Of a DNA stretch of 64,000 nt, positions 40,830-59,048 are shown piece by piece. The stretch is taken from the NCBI RefSeq assembly GCF_000092645.1, contig NC_014165.1, forward strand, positions 2,356,001 through 2,420,000, written 5' to 3'. Each line of letters opens with the position of its first letter. Position 1 is the stretch's first letter. This DNA is from Thermobispora bispora DSM 43833 (lineage in GTDB: Bacteria; Actinomycetota; Actinomycetes; Streptosporangiales; Streptosporangiaceae). A model generated the notes under the pieces. The model was not told the origin of the DNA. It ran no database searches and saw nothing but the letters and a program-made list of their open reading frames with translations. The translations under genes and the position numbers were made by a program.

Positions 40830-41003
40830 GTTGCTCCCTACGACGGCGGGGCTGTGGACGATTTCGACTCCATGGTAGGCGCTCGCCGGAAGCGCTCCTC
40901 ACGCGCCACGGTGTCGCGGTGACCGATGTGACTTGTCCACTCCGGAGTGGCGCCGTGCGGGCGGTCAGGCACCGTCCGCGCGGTCAGGCGCAGTGCGCGC
41001 GGC

Positions 41004-42008
41004 TCAGGGGACGACGGGCTTGCGCGAGGCGAGCACGATCCAGACCTGGCCTCGGGCGAACGGCATGGGCGTGCCGTCGGCGAGCGTGTAGACGGTGCCC
41101 TCCTCCTTGGAGGCGCGCGACCACCGCACCCGGTAGGCCTTGCCGTCGCGCAGCACGATCCCGGTGCCCTTGCCGACCGTGTGGAGGAGCGGGGTGTAGG
41201 CGCCGTTGACGTCGTGGAACTCCGAGCGGGTCGTCTTGACCCACTGGATCACGATGGTGGGCGCGCCCTGCTGGCCGCCCTCCGCGGCCATGTTCTTGGC
41301 CCCGTCCTGGGAGATGAGCCAGCGCTTCTGCCGCTCCGACCAGGTGAAGGTGAACCGGGCGGACGGGTAGCGCACGGTCACGGAGCGCCGCTCGGTGCCG
41401 CCGGGCGGCGGCTCGTCGGAGAAGACGAAGCCGATGTCCTTGGCCTTGCTCGCCTGGGGCGCCCGCGCGAGCAGCTTCCGCGGGCTGGCGAACAGGTTGT
41501 ACGGCGCGACCCGGCCGGGCATCCGGCGGTACGCGTCGGGCGCCGCCGAGTCGGAGACGTCGTACAGCGGGGCCCGCTGGACGTACGGGATCATCTTGGT
41601 CTGCACGCCGGAGTAGGCGAGCGCGGGCTTGCCGAACATCGGCAGGAGGTACAGGTCGGAGATCCGGGCGCTCCGCACCGGCCCCACCTGGGCGGGGAGC
41701 TTCGACGAGAAGATCGCCATGAGCCGGGTCAGCCCGCCCTCGACCTGCTGGACGTAGACGATGTCCGCGCTGCGCAGGCCCATCTGCGGCTTGCCGGCCG
41801 GGGTGTTCTCGATCTTGACGGCGAGCACCGGGCGGAGGGTGGAGGCCGGCAGGCCGGTGAACGGGTGCTCGGGAGGCGGCTCGGGGGACGGTGAGGGTGA
41901 TACCACGGCCTGGCCCGGCTGAGCCTGGGCCTTGGACCCGTCGCCGGAGCAGGCCGCTCCGGCGAGCACCACCGCCGTCGCCAGCGCGAAACGGATCACT
42001 GCCCGCAC
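41004..42008 (-). CDS. DUF3048 (YerB-like) lipoprotein
   Basis: The 334-residue protein has a lipobox (VLAGAACSG, Cys20), a Ser/Pro linker and the DUF3048 fold (PVLAVKIENTPAGKPQMGLRSADIVYVQQVEGGLTRLMAIF, VGPVRSARISDLYLLPMFGKPALAYSG). The C-terminal domain contains YTPLLHTVGKGTGIVLRDGKAYRVRW. It should be tethered outside the membrane; no biochemical function is established. It is flanked by gaps on both sides and is probably monocistronic. Confidence 0.88.
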   Translation of the reverse strand: MRAVIRFALATAVVLAGAACSGDGSKAQAQPGQAVVSPSPSPEPPPEHPFTGLPASTLRPVLAVKIENTPAGKPQMGLRSADIVYVQQVEGGLTRLMAIFSSKLPAQVGPVRSARISDLYLLPMFGKPALAYSGVQTKMIPYVQRAPLYDVSDSAAPDAYRRMPGRVAPYNLFASPRKLLARAPQASKAKDIGFVFSDEPPPGGTERRSVTVRYPSARFTFTWSERQKRWLISQDGAKNMAAEGGQQGAPTIVIQWVKTTRSEFHDVNGAYTPLLHTVGKGTGIVLRDGKAYRVRWSRASKEEGTVYTLADGTPMPFARGQVWIVLASRKPVVP

Positions 42009-50423: not shown

Positions 50424-50782
50424 GGTCGTGCTCTCCTCCACTCCGTCACTGCCCCGGTTCACCGGTTCCTACCGCACCCGAGCGGGGTTCCTGCCGCCCC
50501 CAAGCAGGATATGCCGCACTGATCGCCATCCGTCCGGGTGGTCGCGACAGTGCGGCCCTTGGGCGCGCGGCGGGCGGGGGCCTCGCCCATGCTCCCCGGC
50601 GGGGGCGGCCCCACGGCGGACGCCGGCCGCACCGCGTCCTCCCGGCCGCGGACGTGGGCCGGGCCACCGGAGCGCGGACCGGCCCCGGCGGACGGGCGGT
50701 TCCGCGGCCGGGGCGCGGACGGCCCGGCGGCACGGGGCGGCCGGCCTCGCGGCCGGGACGCGATCGGGCCGGCGGCCGGAGC

Positions 50783-50816
50783 GTACGGCTCCCGCCGCGC
50801 CGGGCGGGAGCCGTAC
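50783..50816 (-). terminator. Terminator after thrS
   Basis: GTACGGCTCCCGCC (50783-50796) pairs perfectly over 14 bp with 50803-50816, loop of six, five bases past the thrS stop. HIT therefore needs read-through or its own promoter. Confidence 0.75.
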
Positions 50817-53022: not shown

Positions 53023-54000
53023 TCACCAGCGGTGGTGGACCTGCGGCCGGATCAGCTCGTCGTACACGGTGCGGACCGCCGCGTGCACCTCGGGGGACAA
53101 GCGCGGGAAACCCGCGGCCGCGGCGTTCGCCCGCGCCTGCTCCGGGTTGCGCGCCCCCGGGATCACCACGCTGACCCCGCTCTGGTCGAGGATCCAGCGC
53201 AGCGCGAACTGGGCCATGGTCATGCCCTCGGGCACCAGCGGGCGGAGCCGCTCCACCGCCTGGAGGCCGACGCCGTACTCCACGCCGGAGAACGTCTCCC
53301 CCACGTCGAACGCCTCACCGCGGCGGTTGAAGGTGCGGTGGTCGTCCTCGGCGAAGACCGACCGCGGGCCGAACTTGCCGGTGAGCAGCCCGCTGGCGAG
53401 CGGGACCCGCGCGATGATGCCGACCCCGGCCTTCTCCGCGGCGGGGAGCACCTCCTCCAGCGGCTTGAGCCGGAACATGTTGAGGATGATCTGCACGGTC
53501 GCCACCCCGGGCCGCTCGATCGCCCGGAGCGCCTCGGCGCAGGTCTCCACGCTCACCCCGTACGCCCGGATGGCGCCCTCCGCGACGAGCGTGTCGAGTG
53601 CGTCGAAGACCCGGTCGTCGTCGTAGACCGGGGACGGCGGGCAGTGGAGCTGCACCAGGTCGATCGTGTCCACCCCCAGGTTCGCCCGGGAGCGGTCGAT
53701 CCAGGAGCGGAAGTTCTCCAGGGTGTAGACCTCCGGCGTCTGGGCGACCCGGCGGCCCATCTTCGTCGCCACGGTGAGCCCGGGCCGTTCCTTGAGCACC
53801 CGCCCGATCAGGCGCTCGCTGCGGCCGTCGCCGTACACGTCGGCGGTGTCGATGAAGTCGACCCCGGCGTCGATCGCGGCGTGGATCGTGGCGAGCGCGT
53901 CGGCCTCGCTCACCTCGCCCCAGTCCCCGCCGATCTGCCAGGCGCCGAGCCCGACCACGCCGACTCGCCTGCCCGTTCTGCCCAAGACGCGCTGTTCCAT
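53023..54000 (-). CDS. Aldo/keto reductase
   Basis: The 325-residue NADPH-dependent barrel enzyme carries the catalytic tetrad pattern: FIDTADVYGDGRSERLIG (Asp, Tyr), VATKMGRR (Lys) and DLVQLHCPP (His). The C-terminal cofactor motif is SVVIPGARNPEQARAN. The substrate is unknown. ATG 54000 lacks a ribosome-binding site, but TACGAT (54012-54007) lies seven bases before it, so the mRNA may be leaderless. Confidence 0.92.
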   Translation of the reverse strand: MEQRVLGRTGRRVGVVGLGAWQIGGDWGEVSEADALATIHAAIDAGVDFIDTADVYGDGRSERLIGRVLKERPGLTVATKMGRRVAQTPEVYTLENFRSWIDRSRANLGVDTIDLVQLHCPPSPVYDDDRVFDALDTLVAEGAIRAYGVSVETCAEALRAIERPGVATVQIILNMFRLKPLEEVLPAAEKAGVGIIARVPLASGLLTGKFGPRSVFAEDDHRTFNRRGEAFDVGETFSGVEYGVGLQAVERLRPLVPEGMTMAQFALRWILDQSGVSVVIPGARNPEQARANAAAAGFPRLSPEVHAAVRTVYDELIRPQVHHRW

Positions 54001-54100
54001 GAGGCCGATCGTATCGAGTGGGTCACGGGCGATTCTCATGCGCCGCTCCCCCGCCGGTCTCCCGGGCCGGATCGCCGGGAAGGCGGGGCCGGAAACAAGA

Positions 54101-54126
54101 AGGGGTGAACCGAGCGGTCCACCCCT
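54101..54126 (-). terminator. Terminator after the exported unknown protein
   Basis: AGGGGTG pairs with CACCCCT with further inner pairing including one G-U, followed on the minus strand by TCTTGTTTC. Confidence 0.6.
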
Positions 54127-54150
54127 CCGTTGCGATGCGCCGGCTCCCGA

Positions 54151-54840
54151 TCACTCCTCGGGCTGGGACTCCGACGTCTGCTGATCGGCGTCGGTGAACT
54201 GCTGGCCGACCGCCTGCTTGGCGAGGTCCTCACCGGAGAGCTTCGCGTTGACCGGCTGGTTGCCCTGCGAGCCGAACAGGAAGTCCTGCCCGCCGTCCGG
54301 GCGGTTCCGCGTGACGACCGGCCCCGTGGCGCCCTGGCCCGCCGGCACGGTGAACCCGGGGACGCCGCGGACGTTGATCGGCTGCTTGCGCACGTTCCGG
54401 TCACCGGTGTTCCACACCGGGATGTCGAAGTCCTCCAGGAGCGGGAAGCTCATCTCCGGGAACTCCGGGAAGCTCACGTTGGCGATCTCCGGGGCCTGCC
54501 CCGAGCCGGATCCGGGGTTCGGGTTCCCCTCCTGGACGGCGGCGTTCTCCGCCGGACCGGCCTCGGCGCCGGTCTGGGCCTCCTCAGCCGCCGGGCGCTG
54601 CGGGCCGCTGGCCTCGGCCAGGTCCTCGAGGTCCATCAGCGGACCGGCCTTCACGGGCTTGCCGAGGATCTCCAGCGTCCGGTTGGCGATGAGGTCCGGG
54701 TTGTCCGGGTGCTGCAGGGCGACCGCGGCGATCTGCTTGCCCGGCGTGAGCACCCCGGGCGCGGCGGCCGGCCCGGGATCGGCGGGCGTCCCCGGAGCCG
54801 CGGCCAGGGCCGCGGCGATGATTGCGCTGCTCAACGGCAT
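54151..54840 (-). CDS. Exported protein of unknown function A
   Basis: I do not recognise this 229-residue protein. It opens with a short hydrophobic signal (MPLSSAIIAAALAAAPGTPA), a Pro/Ala stretch, an NPDLIANRTLEILGKPVKAGP helix, a low-complexity Glu/Ala/Gly/Pro middle (about 80-115), then EIANVSFPEFPEMSFPLLEDF and a Gln-rich, acidic C-terminus. There are no cysteines. GGGGGGA precedes the ATG. It resembles the exported protein at 56.2 kb in layout (signal ending ADPxP, disordered acidic middle), and both genes have TTGACC[C/G]GACA about 90 bp upstream. Confidence 0.7.
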   Translation of the reverse strand: MPLSSAIIAAALAAAPGTPADPGPAAAPGVLTPGKQIAAVALQHPDNPDLIANRTLEILGKPVKAGPLMDLEDLAEASGPQRPAAEEAQTGAEAGPAENAAVQEGNPNPGSGSGQAPEIANVSFPEFPEMSFPLLEDFDIPVWNTGDRNVRKQPINVRGVPGFTVPAGQGATGPVVTRNRPDGGQDFLFGSQGNQPVNAKLSGEDLAKQAVGQQFTDADQQTSESQPEE

Positions 54841-54904
54841 GACATTCCCCCCGAAGGTTGCTGTCGGTTACGGACCCGACGCTATGCGCCACATTCCGGC
54901 TGAT

Positions 54905-54933
54905 CACGTATTTCACGTTCTGTGTCGGGTCAA
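54905..54933 (-). promoter_or_regulatory. Promoter of exported protein A
   Basis: TTGACC (54933-54928), 17 bp and TACGTG (54910-54905) suggest a start near 54898. The -35 block TTGACCCGACA recurs as TTGACCGGACA at 56838-56828 in front of exported protein B. Confidence 0.4.
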
Positions 54934-54965
54934 AGATCGGGTGTGCCCTCGTGACCCACCGCCGC

Positions 54966-55055
54966 CCGCGTGATCGCGGCCCGCGAGATCGCGGTCCTCG
55001 TGATCGAGGGCCTCATCACCGCGGGTCTCATCACCATGGCCCGCGGCACCGCGGC
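54966..55055. repeat. Six tandem copies of a 15-bp unit
   Basis: CCGCGTGATCGCGGC and variants repeat six times without interruption; several units are themselves palindromic (CGCGTGATCGCG, CCTCGTGATCGAGG). They lie upstream of the promoter of exported protein A. Read on the plus strand they give Pro-Arg-Asp-Arg-Gly repeats, but that frame has no gene-like start. Confidence 0.75.
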
Positions 55056-55095
55056 ACGGCGGGGCGGCGCGCCGCGCGGGCCGGCCCGCGCGACA

Positions 55096-55215
55096 GGACG
55101 CCGGGCCACCGGTCGAACCCAGCCGGGCTCGATGTCGCGAGGCGGCGGGCCGCCGGTCCAGCCCGGCCGGGCTCGGGTGCCGCAGGGCGGCGGGCCACCG
55201 GTGCGGGCCCGTTCC
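55096..55215. repeat. 44-45-bp tandem repeat, about 2.5 copies
   Basis: GGGCC[A/G]CCGGT with flanking CCGGGCTCG begins at 55101, 55145 and 55190. The last copy is cut short by the fasciclin stop. Confidence 0.65.
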
Positions 55216-55225
55216 GGCACCCCGC

Positions 55226-55825
55226 CTACTTCGGCAGCAGCACCTTGTCGATCAGGTAGACGGTCGCGTTGCGCGTGCTCAGCTCGCCGCAGATCACCCG
55301 CGCGCCGTTCACCTTGGCCCGCTCGGGCGATCCCTTCACGACCAGCGTGTCCCCCTGCAGGTTGGTCAGCTTGCCCCGCAGCCCGGAGCGGGGCGTGCGC
55401 CCCTGCACCATGTGGTAGCCGAGCAGGCTGCCGACCGCCCGCTGGTCCTTCATCAGCTTCTTGATCTTCCCGTCCAGGGCCTTGTCGAAGGCCTTGTCGA
55501 CGGGCGCGAACAGCGTGACGTCCTCGACCGTGTCGATCTTCTCCACCAGGCCGGTCCGCTTGGCCGCCTTGGCCAGCGTGGAGAGCTCGGGGATCTTGGC
55601 GAGGGCGGTGCCGACCGGTTCCCGCTCCAGCGAGGCCGGCACCCCGGCGCAGGCGGAGCCGGACCGGGGCGCCGCGGCCGGGGCGGACGGTGCCGCGGTG
55701 GCCGTGGCCGTCACCGCGCCGGAGGCGGCCACGCCGGTTTGGGGGTGTTCGGTGCCCGTGCCGCCGCAAGCCGTGGCGAGCCACGCCGCCGCGGCAGCGG
55801 GGAGGGCGAGTAGCCGGGTGTTCAT
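55226..55825 (-). CDS. Fasciclin-domain lipoprotein
   Basis: The 199-residue protein has a lipobox (AAWLATACGG, Cys20), an Ala/Thr linker and one fasciclin (FAS1) domain: LSTLAKAAKRTGLVEKIDTVEDVTLFAPVDKAFDKAL, YHMVQGRTPRSGLRGKLTNLQGDTLVV and ATVYLIDKVLLPK. FAS1 lipoproteins mediate adhesion or surface interactions. ATG 55825 follows GGGAG by about nine bases. Confidence 0.9.
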   Translation of the reverse strand: MNTRLLALPAAAAAWLATACGGTGTEHPQTGVAASGAVTATATAAPSAPAAAPRSGSACAGVPASLEREPVGTALAKIPELSTLAKAAKRTGLVEKIDTVEDVTLFAPVDKAFDKALDGKIKKLMKDQRAVGSLLGYHMVQGRTPRSGLRGKLTNLQGDTLVVKGSPERAKVNGARVICGELSTRNATVYLIDKVLLPK

Positions 55826-56084
55826 GACGTCGTGCTCCCTCGTCGGGTCGCTGCTCGCCGGCGTGGCCGGGATGGTCACCGGAGTGCGCCCGGCCGCCGC
55901 GGTGGCGGCACGGCACGGTGGACGATCAGCGACGGGTCACATTTCGTACCTGCGGATGCGGCTTCGCATGGACGGTGCGGCGGGCGCTCCGGTCGCGGGC
56001 CGCGCAGGGCCCGCGCGGGCTCGCTCACCGTGGGCGGGCCGGCGCGCCGCGCCGGTGCCGGGCGCCGCGTCCCCGCCCATCGGT

Positions 56085-56130
56085 GCGGTGCCGTACGGGG
56101 TGCCGCACGGCCGCCGCCGTACGGCACCGC
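56085..56130 (-). terminator. Terminator after exported protein B
   Basis: GCGGTGCCGTACGG (56085-56098) pairs perfectly over 14 bp with 56117-56130, loop of 18, 34 bp after the stop. Confidence 0.65.
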
Positions 56131-56163
56131 CCACCGGGAAGCGGCCGCGCCGCCGGCGGTGGG

Positions 56164-56748
56164 TCAGCGGTGGAACCGGCTGCCCTTGCGGCCGGCCTTG
56201 CCGGAGAACGAAGGCGTTCCCTTCGCAATCTGGATCTGGCGGCCCGTCAACTGCGGAAGGGTGAAGCTCTGCCCGCCGGTGCCGATCTTGTCGAGCGGCG
56301 GGTGGATGAAGACGTCGCCGGTCTCCGGGTCGACGATCGTGCCGGGCGGCAGCGACTTCGGCCCGGTCTTGTCGACCGCGGGCAGGGTGACGAACTTCTC
56401 GTCGTCCTCGCCCTGGGCGTCGTCGTCCTTGTCCAGCGCGTCGATGTCGGGCACCACGTTCGCGGGAATGAGGGACAGGGGCGATTCGTCGGAGTCCTCG
56501 TCCCCGGCCGCCTGCTTCTCCCCCGTCTCACGCGCGACCGCGTCGTTCGCCCTGGGCAGCAGGCCCGCCTCCTGCTGCCACCAGATCGGCGGGCCCCACC
56601 AGCCGGGCTGGTAGCCCGGGGCGAATCCGGGCACACCGGTCGTGCTCTGAGCGGGCCGGGACGCGGTGGTGTCCCCCGGAGCCGGATCGGCCGGCGCGGT
56701 CACAGGTCCGGCAAGCAGGACAGCGGTGAGCATGGCCGTACTGATCAT
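56164..56748 (-). CDS. Exported protein of unknown function B
   Basis: An unrecognised 194-residue protein: signal peptide (MISTAMLTAVLLAGPVTAPA), a Trp/Pro-rich segment (YQPGWWGPPIWWQQEAG), an acidic low-complexity middle (DEDSDESPLS, DALDKDDDAQGEDDEKF), a LPPGTIVDPETGDVFIHPPLDKI stretch and a basic C-terminus (SGKAGRKGSRFHR). GGGGGAG lies just before the ATG. Its layout parallels exported protein A two genes downstream; distant homology is possible but unproven. Confidence 0.68.
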   Translation of the reverse strand: MISTAMLTAVLLAGPVTAPADPAPGDTTASRPAQSTTGVPGFAPGYQPGWWGPPIWWQQEAGLLPRANDAVARETGEKQAAGDEDSDESPLSLIPANVVPDIDALDKDDDAQGEDDEKFVTLPAVDKTGPKSLPPGTIVDPETGDVFIHPPLDKIGTGGQSFTLPQLTGRQIQIAKGTPSFSGKAGRKGSRFHR

Positions 56749-56880
56749 GAGACTCCCCCGATGTCGTTGACGGTATGTGCAAGACGGTAAGCGCGGTTCG
56801 CCGGATGGTCTGAGCTCCGACGATCAATGTCCGGTCAACAATGGGGATGGGCCACTTCACCCGGATAGGTCCACCGGATC

Positions 56881-57130
56881 CGCGCTCCCCGCACACCCTC
56901 GGCAGGCTGCCGTTCCCGCGCGCTCCCCACGCGCCCTCTGATGGGTGGCGTTCCCGCGCGCTCCCCGCGCGCCCACGGCAGGCGACCGTCTCCACGCGCT
57001 CCCGCGCCGTCAGTGGGCGGGCATTCCCCACTCGCCCTCAGTGGGCGACCGTCTCCCCGCCCTTCGCCGCGCCCGCGGTGGGCGGGCGTTCCCACGCGCT
57101 CCCCGCGCCCATGGCGGACGAGCGTTCCCG
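56881..57130. repeat. Tandem repeat of a 38-bp unit, about 6.5 copies
   Basis: Units begin at 56881, 56919, 56957, 56995, about 57030 (truncated), 57058 and 57095. The first three are exactly 38 bp. The shared head is CGCGCTCCCCGCGCGCCC and the tail is GGC-rich, ending CGTTCCCG. Later units have 1-10-bp deletions. It lies in a 665-bp gene-free stretch (56749-57413) upstream of exported protein B. The remainder of that stretch is plain GC-rich sequence and a terminator. Confidence 0.8.
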
Positions 57131-57359
57131 TCAGCGAGCAGGCCGGGCGGGATGGCTCCACCGTGCGCCCGGCTCCCCGGCCACCACGTCACCGGGCGCC
57201 ACTCCTGCGCCGGACCACGGTGACCTCCCCCGCCGGCGGTGCCCACCCGCCACCGCGATCCCGGCGCGCCGCCCCGCACCCCCGGGACACCACCGGAGAC
57301 GGGCTCGCGCGGCACCGCGGCGGGTGCCCTCGCCCGCCCCGGCGCGCGTACGGCACGCG

Positions 57360-57404
57360 GATGCCCGATGGGCCGGCCACCGCGGCACCGGCCCATCGGG
57401 CATC
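57360..57404 (-). terminator. Terminator after the acyl-CoA synthetase gene
   Basis: A perfect 17-bp stem (57360-57376 with 57388-57404) encloses an 11-nt loop, nine bases past the stop. Confidence 0.75.
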
Positions 57405-57413
57405 GAGGGGTGA

Positions 57414-59048
57414 TCAGGCGCTGCGGATCCGGGCGGCGTCGTGCAGGCCGAGGATCTCGATGGCCTGCTCCCGCATCTCCACCTTGCGGATCTTCCCGGT
57501 GACCGTCATGGGGAAGGAGTCCACGACGTGCACGTACCGGGGGATCTTGTAGTGGGCGAGGCGGCCCGCGCAGAACTCCCTGAGCCGCTCGGCCGTGAGC
57601 GGCTCGGCGCCCGGGCGCATGATGATCCAGGCCATGAGCTCCTCGCCGTACTTCTCATCGGGCACGCCGATCACCTGCACGTCGGCGATGTCCGGGTGCG
57701 TGTAGAGGAACTCCTCGATCTCGCGCGGGTAGATGTTCTCGCCGCCCCGGATCACCATGTCCTTGATCCGGCCGACGATGTTGACGTACCCCTCCTCGTC
57801 CATGGTCGCCAGGTCGCCGGTGTGCATCCACCGGGCGCGGTCGATCGCCTCGGCCGTGGCCTCGGGCTGCTCCCAGTAGCCGAGCATCACCGAGTAGCCG
57901 CGGGTGCACAGCTCACCGACCTGGCCGCGGGGCACGGTCCGGCCCGTCTCCGGGTCGACGATCTTCACCTCGATGTGCGGCATGACGCGGCCGACCGTCT
58001 CGGTACGGCGGGCCAGCCCATCGGTCCGCCGGGTCATCGTCGACACCGGCGAGGTCTCGGTCATGCCGTAGCAGATCGCCACCTCGGACATGTGCATGTC
58101 GGCGACCACGCGCTTCATCACCTCGACCGGGCAGGGCGATCCGGCCATGATCCCGGTGCGCAGGCTCGACAGGTCGAAGGACGCGAACTCCGGGTGGCCG
58201 AGCTCCGCGATGAACATGGTGGGCACGCCGTACAGGGACGTGCACCGCTCCCGCTCGACGGCGCGGAGCGTCGCCTCGGGGTCGAAGCCGGGCGCGGGGA
58301 GCACGACGCACGACCCGTGGGAGGCGGCGGCGAGGTTGCCCATGACCATGCCGAAGCAGTGGTAGAGCGGCACCGGCAGGCAGATCCGGTCCTGCTCGGT
58401 GTACCCGAGCAGCTCGCCCACGAAGAACCCGTTGTTGAGGATGTTGTGGTGCGAGAGGGTGGCGCCCTTGGGGAAGCCGGTGGTGCCCGACGTGTACTGG
58501 ATGTTGATCGGGTCGTCGAAGGTCAGGGTGGCCGCCCGCTCCCGCAGCGCGGCCGCATCCAGGCTCCGCCCGTCCTCGATGAGCCGCTCCCAGCTCGGCT
58601 CGCCGATGTACACCACGTCGCGGAACCCGATCTGCTCGATCATCGCCCGGTAGTCGCTGGTGCGGTAGGCGACCGCGCTGATCAGCAGCCGCATGCCCGA
58701 CTGCCGCACCACGTACTCGAGCTCATGGGCGCGGTAGGCGGGGTTGACGTTGACGAGGATCGCGCCGATCTTCGCGGTGGCGTACTGGACGAACACCCAC
58801 TCCGCGCAGTTGGGCGACCAGATGCCCACCCGGTCGCCCTTCTTGATCCCGCGGGCCAGCAACCCGAGCGCCACCTCGTTCACCGCGGCGTCGAGCTCCG
58901 CGTACGTCCAGCGGCGCCCGGTCGCCGCCTCCACCAAGGCCTCGCGGGCGCCGAACCGCGCCACCGTGCGTTCGAAGTTCTCCCCGATCGTCTCACCGAG
59001 CAGGGGGACGTCGGAGACACCGGAGGAGTACGACAGCAACTCGGCCAT
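57414..59048 (-). CDS. AMP-binding fatty-acyl-CoA synthetase
   Basis: The 544-residue adenylate-forming enzyme activates a carboxylic acid as acyl-AMP and then acyl-CoA. It has the P-loop [18 protein letters not shown] (about 182-200), [51 protein letters not shown] and the catalytic Lys in [14 protein letters not shown]. Overall it resembles medium/long-chain acyl-CoA synthetases. ATG 59048 has GGAGAC eight bases upstream. It diverges from a GAF-LuxR regulator and its predicted start point lies inside a 20-bp inverted repeat. Confidence 0.93.

Follow-up and report, generated by a model that had tools for sequence, protein, structure and literature searches.

A conserved promoter-like element precedes a small family of probably exported, mostly disordered proteins around a fasciclin gene of Thermobispora bispora

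Activator-dependent promoters of the sigma-70 type are one general kind of promoter with which the element described below can be compared. Two described gene systems also bear on it. The Vsp genes of Mycoplasma bovis have a conserved 70 bp before the ATG and a conserved N-terminus of 31 amino acids (aa), the rest being variable and repetitive (PMC3365025). In M. tuberculosis, SigK controls mpt70 and mpt83 (the SigK/RskA regulon with MPT70/MPT83; PMC7509140). The window analysed here is a 64-kb stretch (G000:C1:2356001-2420000) of the single-contig genome of Thermobispora bispora, which has 4,189,976 bp. The G+C content of the window is 72.5%, and PMC3035289 gives about 72.4% for strain R51T, an actinomycete with spores borne in pairs. 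In this window a conserved element of about 105 nt precedes each of two genes, P1 and P3, which lie on either side of a fasciclin gene. With moderate confidence, we take P1 and P3 to be paralogues in a small exported, mostly disordered family with two or three members per genome, each copy having its own conserved promoter. The locus recalls both described systems in part. As in the Vsp genes, the family copies share the stretch before the ATG and the N-terminus, followed by a variable middle. As in the SigK regulon, a fasciclin protein is encoded, and its solved relatives include MPT70 (1nyo, E 1.2e-21) and periostin.

The three genes are as follows.

54151..54840, minus strand: P1 gene (group B member), 229 aa, exported-type protein
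55226..55825, minus strand: fasciclin-domain protein gene, 199 aa, putative lipoprotein, flanked by P3 and P1, all on one strand
56164..56748, minus strand: P3 gene (group A member), 194 aa, exported-type protein

A preliminary description of the interval 54840-57413 had reported two unrecognised exported proteins beside a fasciclin lipoprotein. All three genes are present, and no Pfam or NCBIfam family was found for P1 or P3. The first base of the P1 start codon is 54840, and the P1 coding region thus lies just outside that interval. The middle gene is of the fasciclin type as claimed (Pfam Fasciclin PF02469, 88.9 bits against a gathering score of 22); read by eye, its signal ends ...WLATACGG, in which A-T-A-C fits a lipobox apart from Ala at -3. 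The signal ending ADPxP is borne out by PADPxP in both P1 and P3, after a short hydrophobic N-terminus. The reported TTGACC[C/G]GACA at 90-93 bp before the ATG is confirmed as well: TTGACCCGACA begins 93 nt upstream of the P1 ATG and TTGACCGGACA begins 90 nt upstream of the P3 ATG. These are the only copies of the motif in the window, and TTGACCSGACAYNG has exactly two perfect matches genome-wide, those before P1 and P3. The 11-mer proves to be the top of the conserved element, which ends in the start codon. The parts of the element are located as follows, the hexamers being predicted.

54838..54942, minus strand: upstream element of P1, model R1 match of 66.9 bits, ending in ATG
54920..54933, minus strand: upstream box of P1, TTGACCCGACACAG, from column conservation
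54902..54907, minus strand: predicted -35-like GTGATC of P1, 17 nt before the -10-like hexamer
54879..54884, minus strand: predicted -10-like TAGCGT of P1, from the invariant T, A and T columns
56746..56850, minus strand: upstream element of P3, model R1 match of 82.4 bits, ending in ATG
56825..56838, minus strand: upstream box of P3, TTGACCGGACATTG, from column conservation
56784..56789, minus strand: predicted -10-like TACCGT of P3, from the invariant T, A and T columns

Model R1 is a sequence-only model built from 15 P1/P3 upstream sequences. Matches were reported to E <= 0.01, and a match with E < 1e-6 is called a strong site. Of 297 family genomes, 31 were matched by R1: 24 have strong sites, and in the other 7 all matches are weak. 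The order-level search of 345 genomes returned the same 24 carriers and one weak match. Altogether the 24 carriers have 67 strong sites, with three per genome in 19 of them and two per genome in the 5 of genus g23. They belong to five genera: Thermobispora, Microbispora (g65), Sphaerimonospora (g35), Planotetraspora (g59) and g23. The exact pattern matched 23 stretches belonging to Microbispora, Sphaerimonospora and Planotetraspora.

The open reading frame (ORF) at the end of the element encodes one protein kind at all 66 testable sites. The ORF taken was that of the first ATG near the element end with more than 40 aa, and the likeness of the products was judged by reading; site 67 (L069) runs off the contig end, leaving 66 sites with downstream DNA. 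The building of R1 had made no use of 51 of these sites, namely 23 further P1/P3-type sites, 18 third copies and 10 from g23, and 28 of the 51 (the third copies and those of g23) are of types outside the model. Since all 66 sites precede one protein kind, P1 and P3 are best read as paralogues. The preliminary description had spoken of unrelatedness; this holds for the repeat units discussed below, not for P1 and P3, which look like paralogues. Among the 7 weak-only genomes (E 3e-4 to 8e-3), the 6 inspected with a simple gene caller have no family-type gene adjoining any of the matches; that inspection covered neither G221 nor one weak extra match in carrier G154. A weak half-element, comprising the core and the ribosome-binding part, is seen in another genus at L064:1501-1566, with no family-type gene found there by the gene caller; it may be chance or a relic.

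The upstream box has the consensus TTGACCsGACAyTG, in which the opening TTGA and one C are invariant at the 67 sites. Counted from the T that opens the box, the inner G of GTGATC comes after 28 nt at 59 of the 67 sites and after 27 nt at 8, and this G and the A of the block are kept at 66. TAnnnT stands 17 nt (47 sites) or 18 nt (20 sites) 3′ of GTGATC, with its T, A and T present in 67/67. A second TAnnnT-like copy occurs 14 nt further on at 63 of the 67 sites, and GGGGGA then precedes the ATG. The element thus has the predicted TAnnnT -10 and the second conserved block 17-18 nt upstream that mark a core of the sigma-70 type, and the spacing fits such a core with an activator box near -55. 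It would share with activator-dependent sigma-70-type promoters a box about 55 nt before the predicted start, a poor -35, a TAnnnT -10 and the 17-18 nt spacing. To our knowledge, and with no motif database searched, no activator box of this sequence has been described. A structured RNA or riboswitch leader was considered and rejected, as there were 0 pairs on the 67 sequences, no compensating changes on 15, and no Rfam match near the gathering score. In appearance the element is an upstream box joined to a TAnnnT -10 core rather than an RNA.

The conservation between copies of one genome falls mostly within the element and the protein start. Over positions -105 to -1 the identity is 67% for A-B pairs (18 genomes), 66% for A-C (18), 58% for B-C (17) and 51% for D-E (5), and shuffled partners give 30-37%. 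Over -220 to -111 and +100 to +220, the identity ranges from 3 points below the shuffles to 6 above. Over +1 to +48 it is 76% for A-B against 40% shuffled, and 58% for D-E against 45%. In codons 2-16 of the A-B pairs (n=270), 99 codons are identical, 113 synonymous and 58 residue-changing. As 113 of the 171 differing codons are synonymous, the A-B protein start is held as protein.

The family comprises 65 complete proteins of 118-390 aa, with one of the 66 (G225, cut by a contig end) excluded. They have a short hydrophobic N-terminus without K/R, a variable, mostly disordered middle, and usually a C-terminal D-V-h-h-x-P motif (h, hydrophobic). No K/R is found within residues 1-14 in 64 of the 65, and thus the basic n-region of a Sec signal is present in just 1/65. 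The only Cys is at position 4 in 49 proteins, and 16 have none. A-x-A occurs inside residues 12-35 in 42/65 and DP inside residues 15-35 in 54/65. Neither the lipobox [LVI][ASTVI][GAS]C within residues 1-40 nor the LPxTG pattern was found in any of the 65. The N-termini of the P1-like and P3-like proteins of relatives are alike, mostly MP[IL]CTA..LAAALLSGP.

A comparison of P1 with P3 had been proposed, together with profile searches and structure prediction. BLAST aligned 23 N-terminal columns only (E 0.016), and the relationship becomes visible via the relatives. The group profiles, run on the 65-sequence set with filters off, match across groups (A to B, E 2.7e-10; D to A, E 1.1e-16), mostly through the first 28 residues or so and weakly through the C-terminus. 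No family above the cut-off was found for either protein: in Pfam, P1 had no match up to E 1 and P3 one match well under the cut-off (E 0.88), and NCBIfam matched neither. Ten relatives likewise gave 0 Pfam matches, hence no fasciclin domain, and the profiles A3 and A4 had no match in PDB. The two AlphaFold2 models, one for each protein, are mostly of low confidence, with a mean predicted local distance difference test (pLDDT) score of 51.2 and 51.2 and a predicted template modelling (pTM) score of 0.17 and 0.23. The P1 model has helices at residues 33-43 and 48-58 (pLDDT 82-88 for the 33-58 block), the rest being mostly of low confidence, read as disorder; that of P3 has a short C-terminal beta-hairpin (137-148, block pLDDT 65-70) and is otherwise of low confidence, again read as disorder. 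No publication on the family or the element turned up in literature searches.

The C-terminal motif reads approximately [DE]-[VIL]-[VFM]-[VIL]-x-P, followed by an h-x-h-P stretch and G-x-Q, and is placed in P3 as follows.

56206..56349, minus strand: C-terminal motif of P3 (DVFIHP...FTLPQLTGRQ), similar in other groups

A search of 150 genomes with this motif gave 31 matches in 13 carriers, 30 of them at family genes; other genomes contributed three single matches, all weak (E 2e-3 to 4e-3). Hits on members are to be expected of a profile built on them, and the telling result is the small number of other matches. The remaining match in carriers, at G083:C143:15957-16100, lies in a 190-aa frame and could be the gene that the truncated site L069 lacks.

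The gene order was compared in relatives. The P1 protein search gave matches in 8 of 149 other family genomes; one (G129, E 2.5e-4, in an 807-aa frame without a strong element) was set aside, leaving seven loci, which were compared over 20 kb each. P3-like, fasciclin, P1-like and aldo/keto reductase genes stand on one strand at 6 of the 7 loci, and a threonyl-tRNA synthetase gene comes next in at least 2 of those, as in the window. At locus L027 the P1-like gene is alone. Among all carriers, the order P3-like, fasciclin, P1-like on one strand is kept in 18 of 24, which are T. bispora, both g35 genomes and all 15 g65 genomes. Synteny in related genomes had been proposed as a check, with homologues that never co-occur as the outcome speaking against a common system; since the order is kept in 18 of the 24 carriers, that outcome is not what is found. 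The co-regulation then suggested for all three genes stands in part. P1 and P3 look co-regulated, the element being conserved over its whole length, beyond the 11-mer, before both and before a third gene in relatives (67 sites in 24 genomes). The R1 search found no copy in front of the fasciclin gene, which could therefore be co-regulated at most via read-through. An alignment of the fasciclin upstream regions (11 relatives and the window; no start was found in L123) shows likeness mainly close to the ATG.

The third gene of T. bispora lies outside the window.

G000:C1:167063-167158 (L066:7064-7159), plus strand: third element copy of T. bispora, before a gene for a 147-aa family protein

This gene is convergent with a gene for a cation P-type ATPase of 1461 aa. 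An ATPase gene of this kind (about 1460 aa) is found near 12 of the 18 third-copy loci, and 5 of the other 6 loci are short fetches of 3.5-4 kb.

Several observations weigh against a family of paralogues with one kind of promoter. The third element copy of T. bispora is degenerate (32 bits, TTTGAACCTGCATTG). A scan of 54000-57500 for sigma-70 promoters with consensus-like -35 and -10 gave 0 promoter-like sites, and the -35-like hexamer of P3, CAGACC, deviates from the GTGATC consensus. Over +1 to +48, the A-C and B-C pairs reach 47-48% against 39-42% shuffled, just 7-8 points higher. The cross-group profile matches are patchy, the group C proteins, which are the third copies (n=18), being found 6, 3 and 5 times by the B, D and E profiles. 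The likeness between groups leans largely on the hydrophobic N-terminus, where low complexity may inflate the scores. The C-terminal motif search missed T. bispora P1 and 2 of the 3 Planotetraspora members. Basic tails are not universal: group E has a median net charge of -7, and the last 40 residues of P1 carry -5, the minimum of group B. As to the fasciclin gene, none was found in the fetched DNA of the ten g23 loci, 2 of the 3 larger P3-like ones of which keep the aldo/keto reductase gene. A fasciclin gene is not specific to the carriers, being present in 70 of 150 family genomes, 58 of which lack the element, and the tie of the fasciclin gene to the family is therefore only positional.

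Other readings of the element and its genes can be weighed on the same data. It would be a possible, if rather unlikely, account that the element is a promoter of the extracytoplasmic function (ECF) sigma type, with TTGACC as -35 and CGTGAT as -10, 18-19 nt apart, the TAnnnT repeats as a leader operator, and SigK as one candidate factor. The near-invariance of TTGACC and GAT at their nearly fixed distance would suit this, as would the neighbours of one Planotetraspora member. There the P3-like gene converges on a fasciclin gene preceded by a SigK/RskA-type pair, in the following layout.

L070:4946-9486: genes for SigK (267 bits for the NCBIfam subfamily PRK09646, cut-off 226), an RskA-type anti-sigma factor, a sulfite-dehydrogenase-like protein and a fasciclin protein in a row, ending against the family gene

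Sigma-factor-like ORFs were also seen by eye in L071 and L075, several kb away from members. However, among the loci whose genes were listed, a SigK-type operon stands beside a member at this one only, and mycobacterial SigK promoters look different. The TAnnnT is invariant and spaced from GTGATC as a sigma-70-type core requires. A search of 8 genomes with the gapped A-B pattern gave, among the matches listed (the G000 rows lie outside the listing), five single 2-mismatch sites and no new site with 0-1 mismatches that would mark an autoregulated sigma gene. In contrast to the MPT70/MPT83 system, P1, P3 and the tested relatives lack a fasciclin domain, and the fasciclin gene lacks the element. 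The layout at L070 is a possible link between SigK and the family, and by analogy SigK is a lead for the regulation of the fasciclin gene. That the family is a variable-surface system like Vsp, with a constant upstream region and N-terminus and a repetitive body diversified by recombination, seems improbable. The layout agrees, the middle of the proteins being variable and often repeat-bearing, but neither order nor strand varies across 18 genomes of three genera, no recombinase is found among the 4 flanking genes typed in the window, the lipobox is absent from the family, and 2-3 strong sites per genome give no sign of a bigger cassette set. Most members moreover have a C-terminal motif in common, a further difference from the Vsp genes.

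The N-terminus might also be something other than a secretion signal, the proteins staying within the membrane or on its inner face and accordingly lacking the positive charge. The near-absence of K/R from residues 1-14 speaks for this, since 22 of 32 exported-like controls have one; these controls were roughly chosen and are noisy, with several mis-called starts or cytosolic-looking entries. The frequent A-x-A and DP point the other way, and disordered bodies with charged tails would suit the outside, and we regard retention inside as unlikely. Orphan genes gathered by chance in a region rich in GC and spacers, with the 11-mer shared by coincidence, are what the view from a single genome would allow, as the P3 protein search found no relative at E <= 0.001 in the 149 other family genomes. 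For the element this is excluded by the family-type gene at 66/66 sites, which makes the reading as a whole scarcely credible; for the repeats, whose units were not seen in relatives, chance may still apply. We keep to the reading of P1 and P3 as paralogues, each with its own conserved promoter.

The gaps between the genes carry the following tandem repeats, located with Tandem Repeats Finder (TRF).

54960..55014: 15-bp repeat, 3.1-3.7 copies, in the P1-fasciclin gap
55102..55202: 44-bp repeat, 2.3 copies, in the P1-fasciclin gap
56881..57110: 37-38-bp repeats upstream of the P3 element, a 38-bp repeat of 3.4 copies (56881-57007) and a 37-bp repeat of 2.1 copies (57033-57110)

Read on the opposite strand, the last array is a 38-bp repeat of 6.6 copies with a 66% match. 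The 15-bp, 44-45-bp and 38-bp arrays had each been reported in an intergenic gap. All of them are present, the 15- and 44-bp ones together between P1 and the fasciclin gene; between that gene and P3 no array scores >= 50. The repeats are non-random: in neither of the two repeat-bearing gaps did any of 500 dinucleotide shuffles score as high as the best array observed there (139 and 149). These gaps rank top of the 24 gaps of at least 150 bp left by the simple gene caller in the window. The next-scoring repeat spacers of the window are 40949-41008 (19-bp unit, 3.1 copies) and 50702-50807 (23-bp unit, 3.5-4.7 copies).

By eye, the repeat units of the window were not seen at 17 related loci, where arrays in the corresponding gaps and in the coding middles are built of different units. 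Some units are shared among close genomes of the genus Microbispora, for instance a 13-bp unit at four loci. At L120:1323-4131 in that genus, a 20-bp repeat of 9.6 copies lies between the P3-like and P1-like genes, and the C-terminal part of the P3-like protein is repeat-built. Shared or mobile sites were rejected as an explanation: the units differ in relatives, and they are not dispersed, the DNA search with the region giving the region itself and 7 matches of 40-85 bp, of which 6 lie elsewhere and none in an array. The repeats give the impression of having arisen independently in GC-rich DNA under little constraint, rather than as a common device. The idea of a recombination-prone region is not supported: these units were not seen at the 17 loci, no recombinase is found among the 4 typed flanking genes, and order and strand do not change in 18 genomes; that the gene order is so stable speaks against a system driven by recombination.

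The 4 flanking genes typed in the window are of the threonyl-tRNA synthetase type, an aldo/keto reductase, an AMP-binding enzyme and a LuxR-type regulator. One further feature lies directly 3′ of P1.

54099..54128, minus strand: terminator-like hairpin with a T run, a weak feature (2 in the region against 1.1 expected from shuffles)

This hairpin would close the transcription unit ahead of the aldo/keto reductase gene.

Taken together, the sequences suggest the following course. A putative transcription factor would bind the upstream box (TTTGACCsGACAyTG) and recruit RNA polymerase to the poor -35 (GTGATC) and the TAnnnT -10. The copies would then switch on together, and the fasciclin gene downstream of P3 would follow by read-through. 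The proteins would exit via an unusual signal, hydrophobic, without a basic residue and often with the single Cys at position 4, and cleavage would occur near A-x-A/ADP. The C-terminal hairpin motif and the mostly basic tails would keep them at the envelope, and the middle would be a spacer that evolves fast, beside the fasciclin protein. The P1/P3 set is probably exported and envelope-retained, and a surface location, as first proposed, is plausible. A bolder proposal, which we offer tentatively and consider rather doubtful, is that a dedicated regulator drives a closed regulon of 2-3 exported, disordered and fast-evolving paralogues, with a charge-free signal and a single conserved Cys, that form a lineage-specific outer layer, for example on aerial hyphae or spores, in five genera.

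The protein bodies of this family evolve too fast for ordinary homology search, yet the DNA element recovers the copies. Here a promoter-like element and a start sequence together define a protein family, and the case is a clean one. The 105-nt element can serve as bait for the putative regulator, and it points to three candidate envelope proteins in sporulating actinobacteria. The family also poses a direct question on export without a basic n-region.

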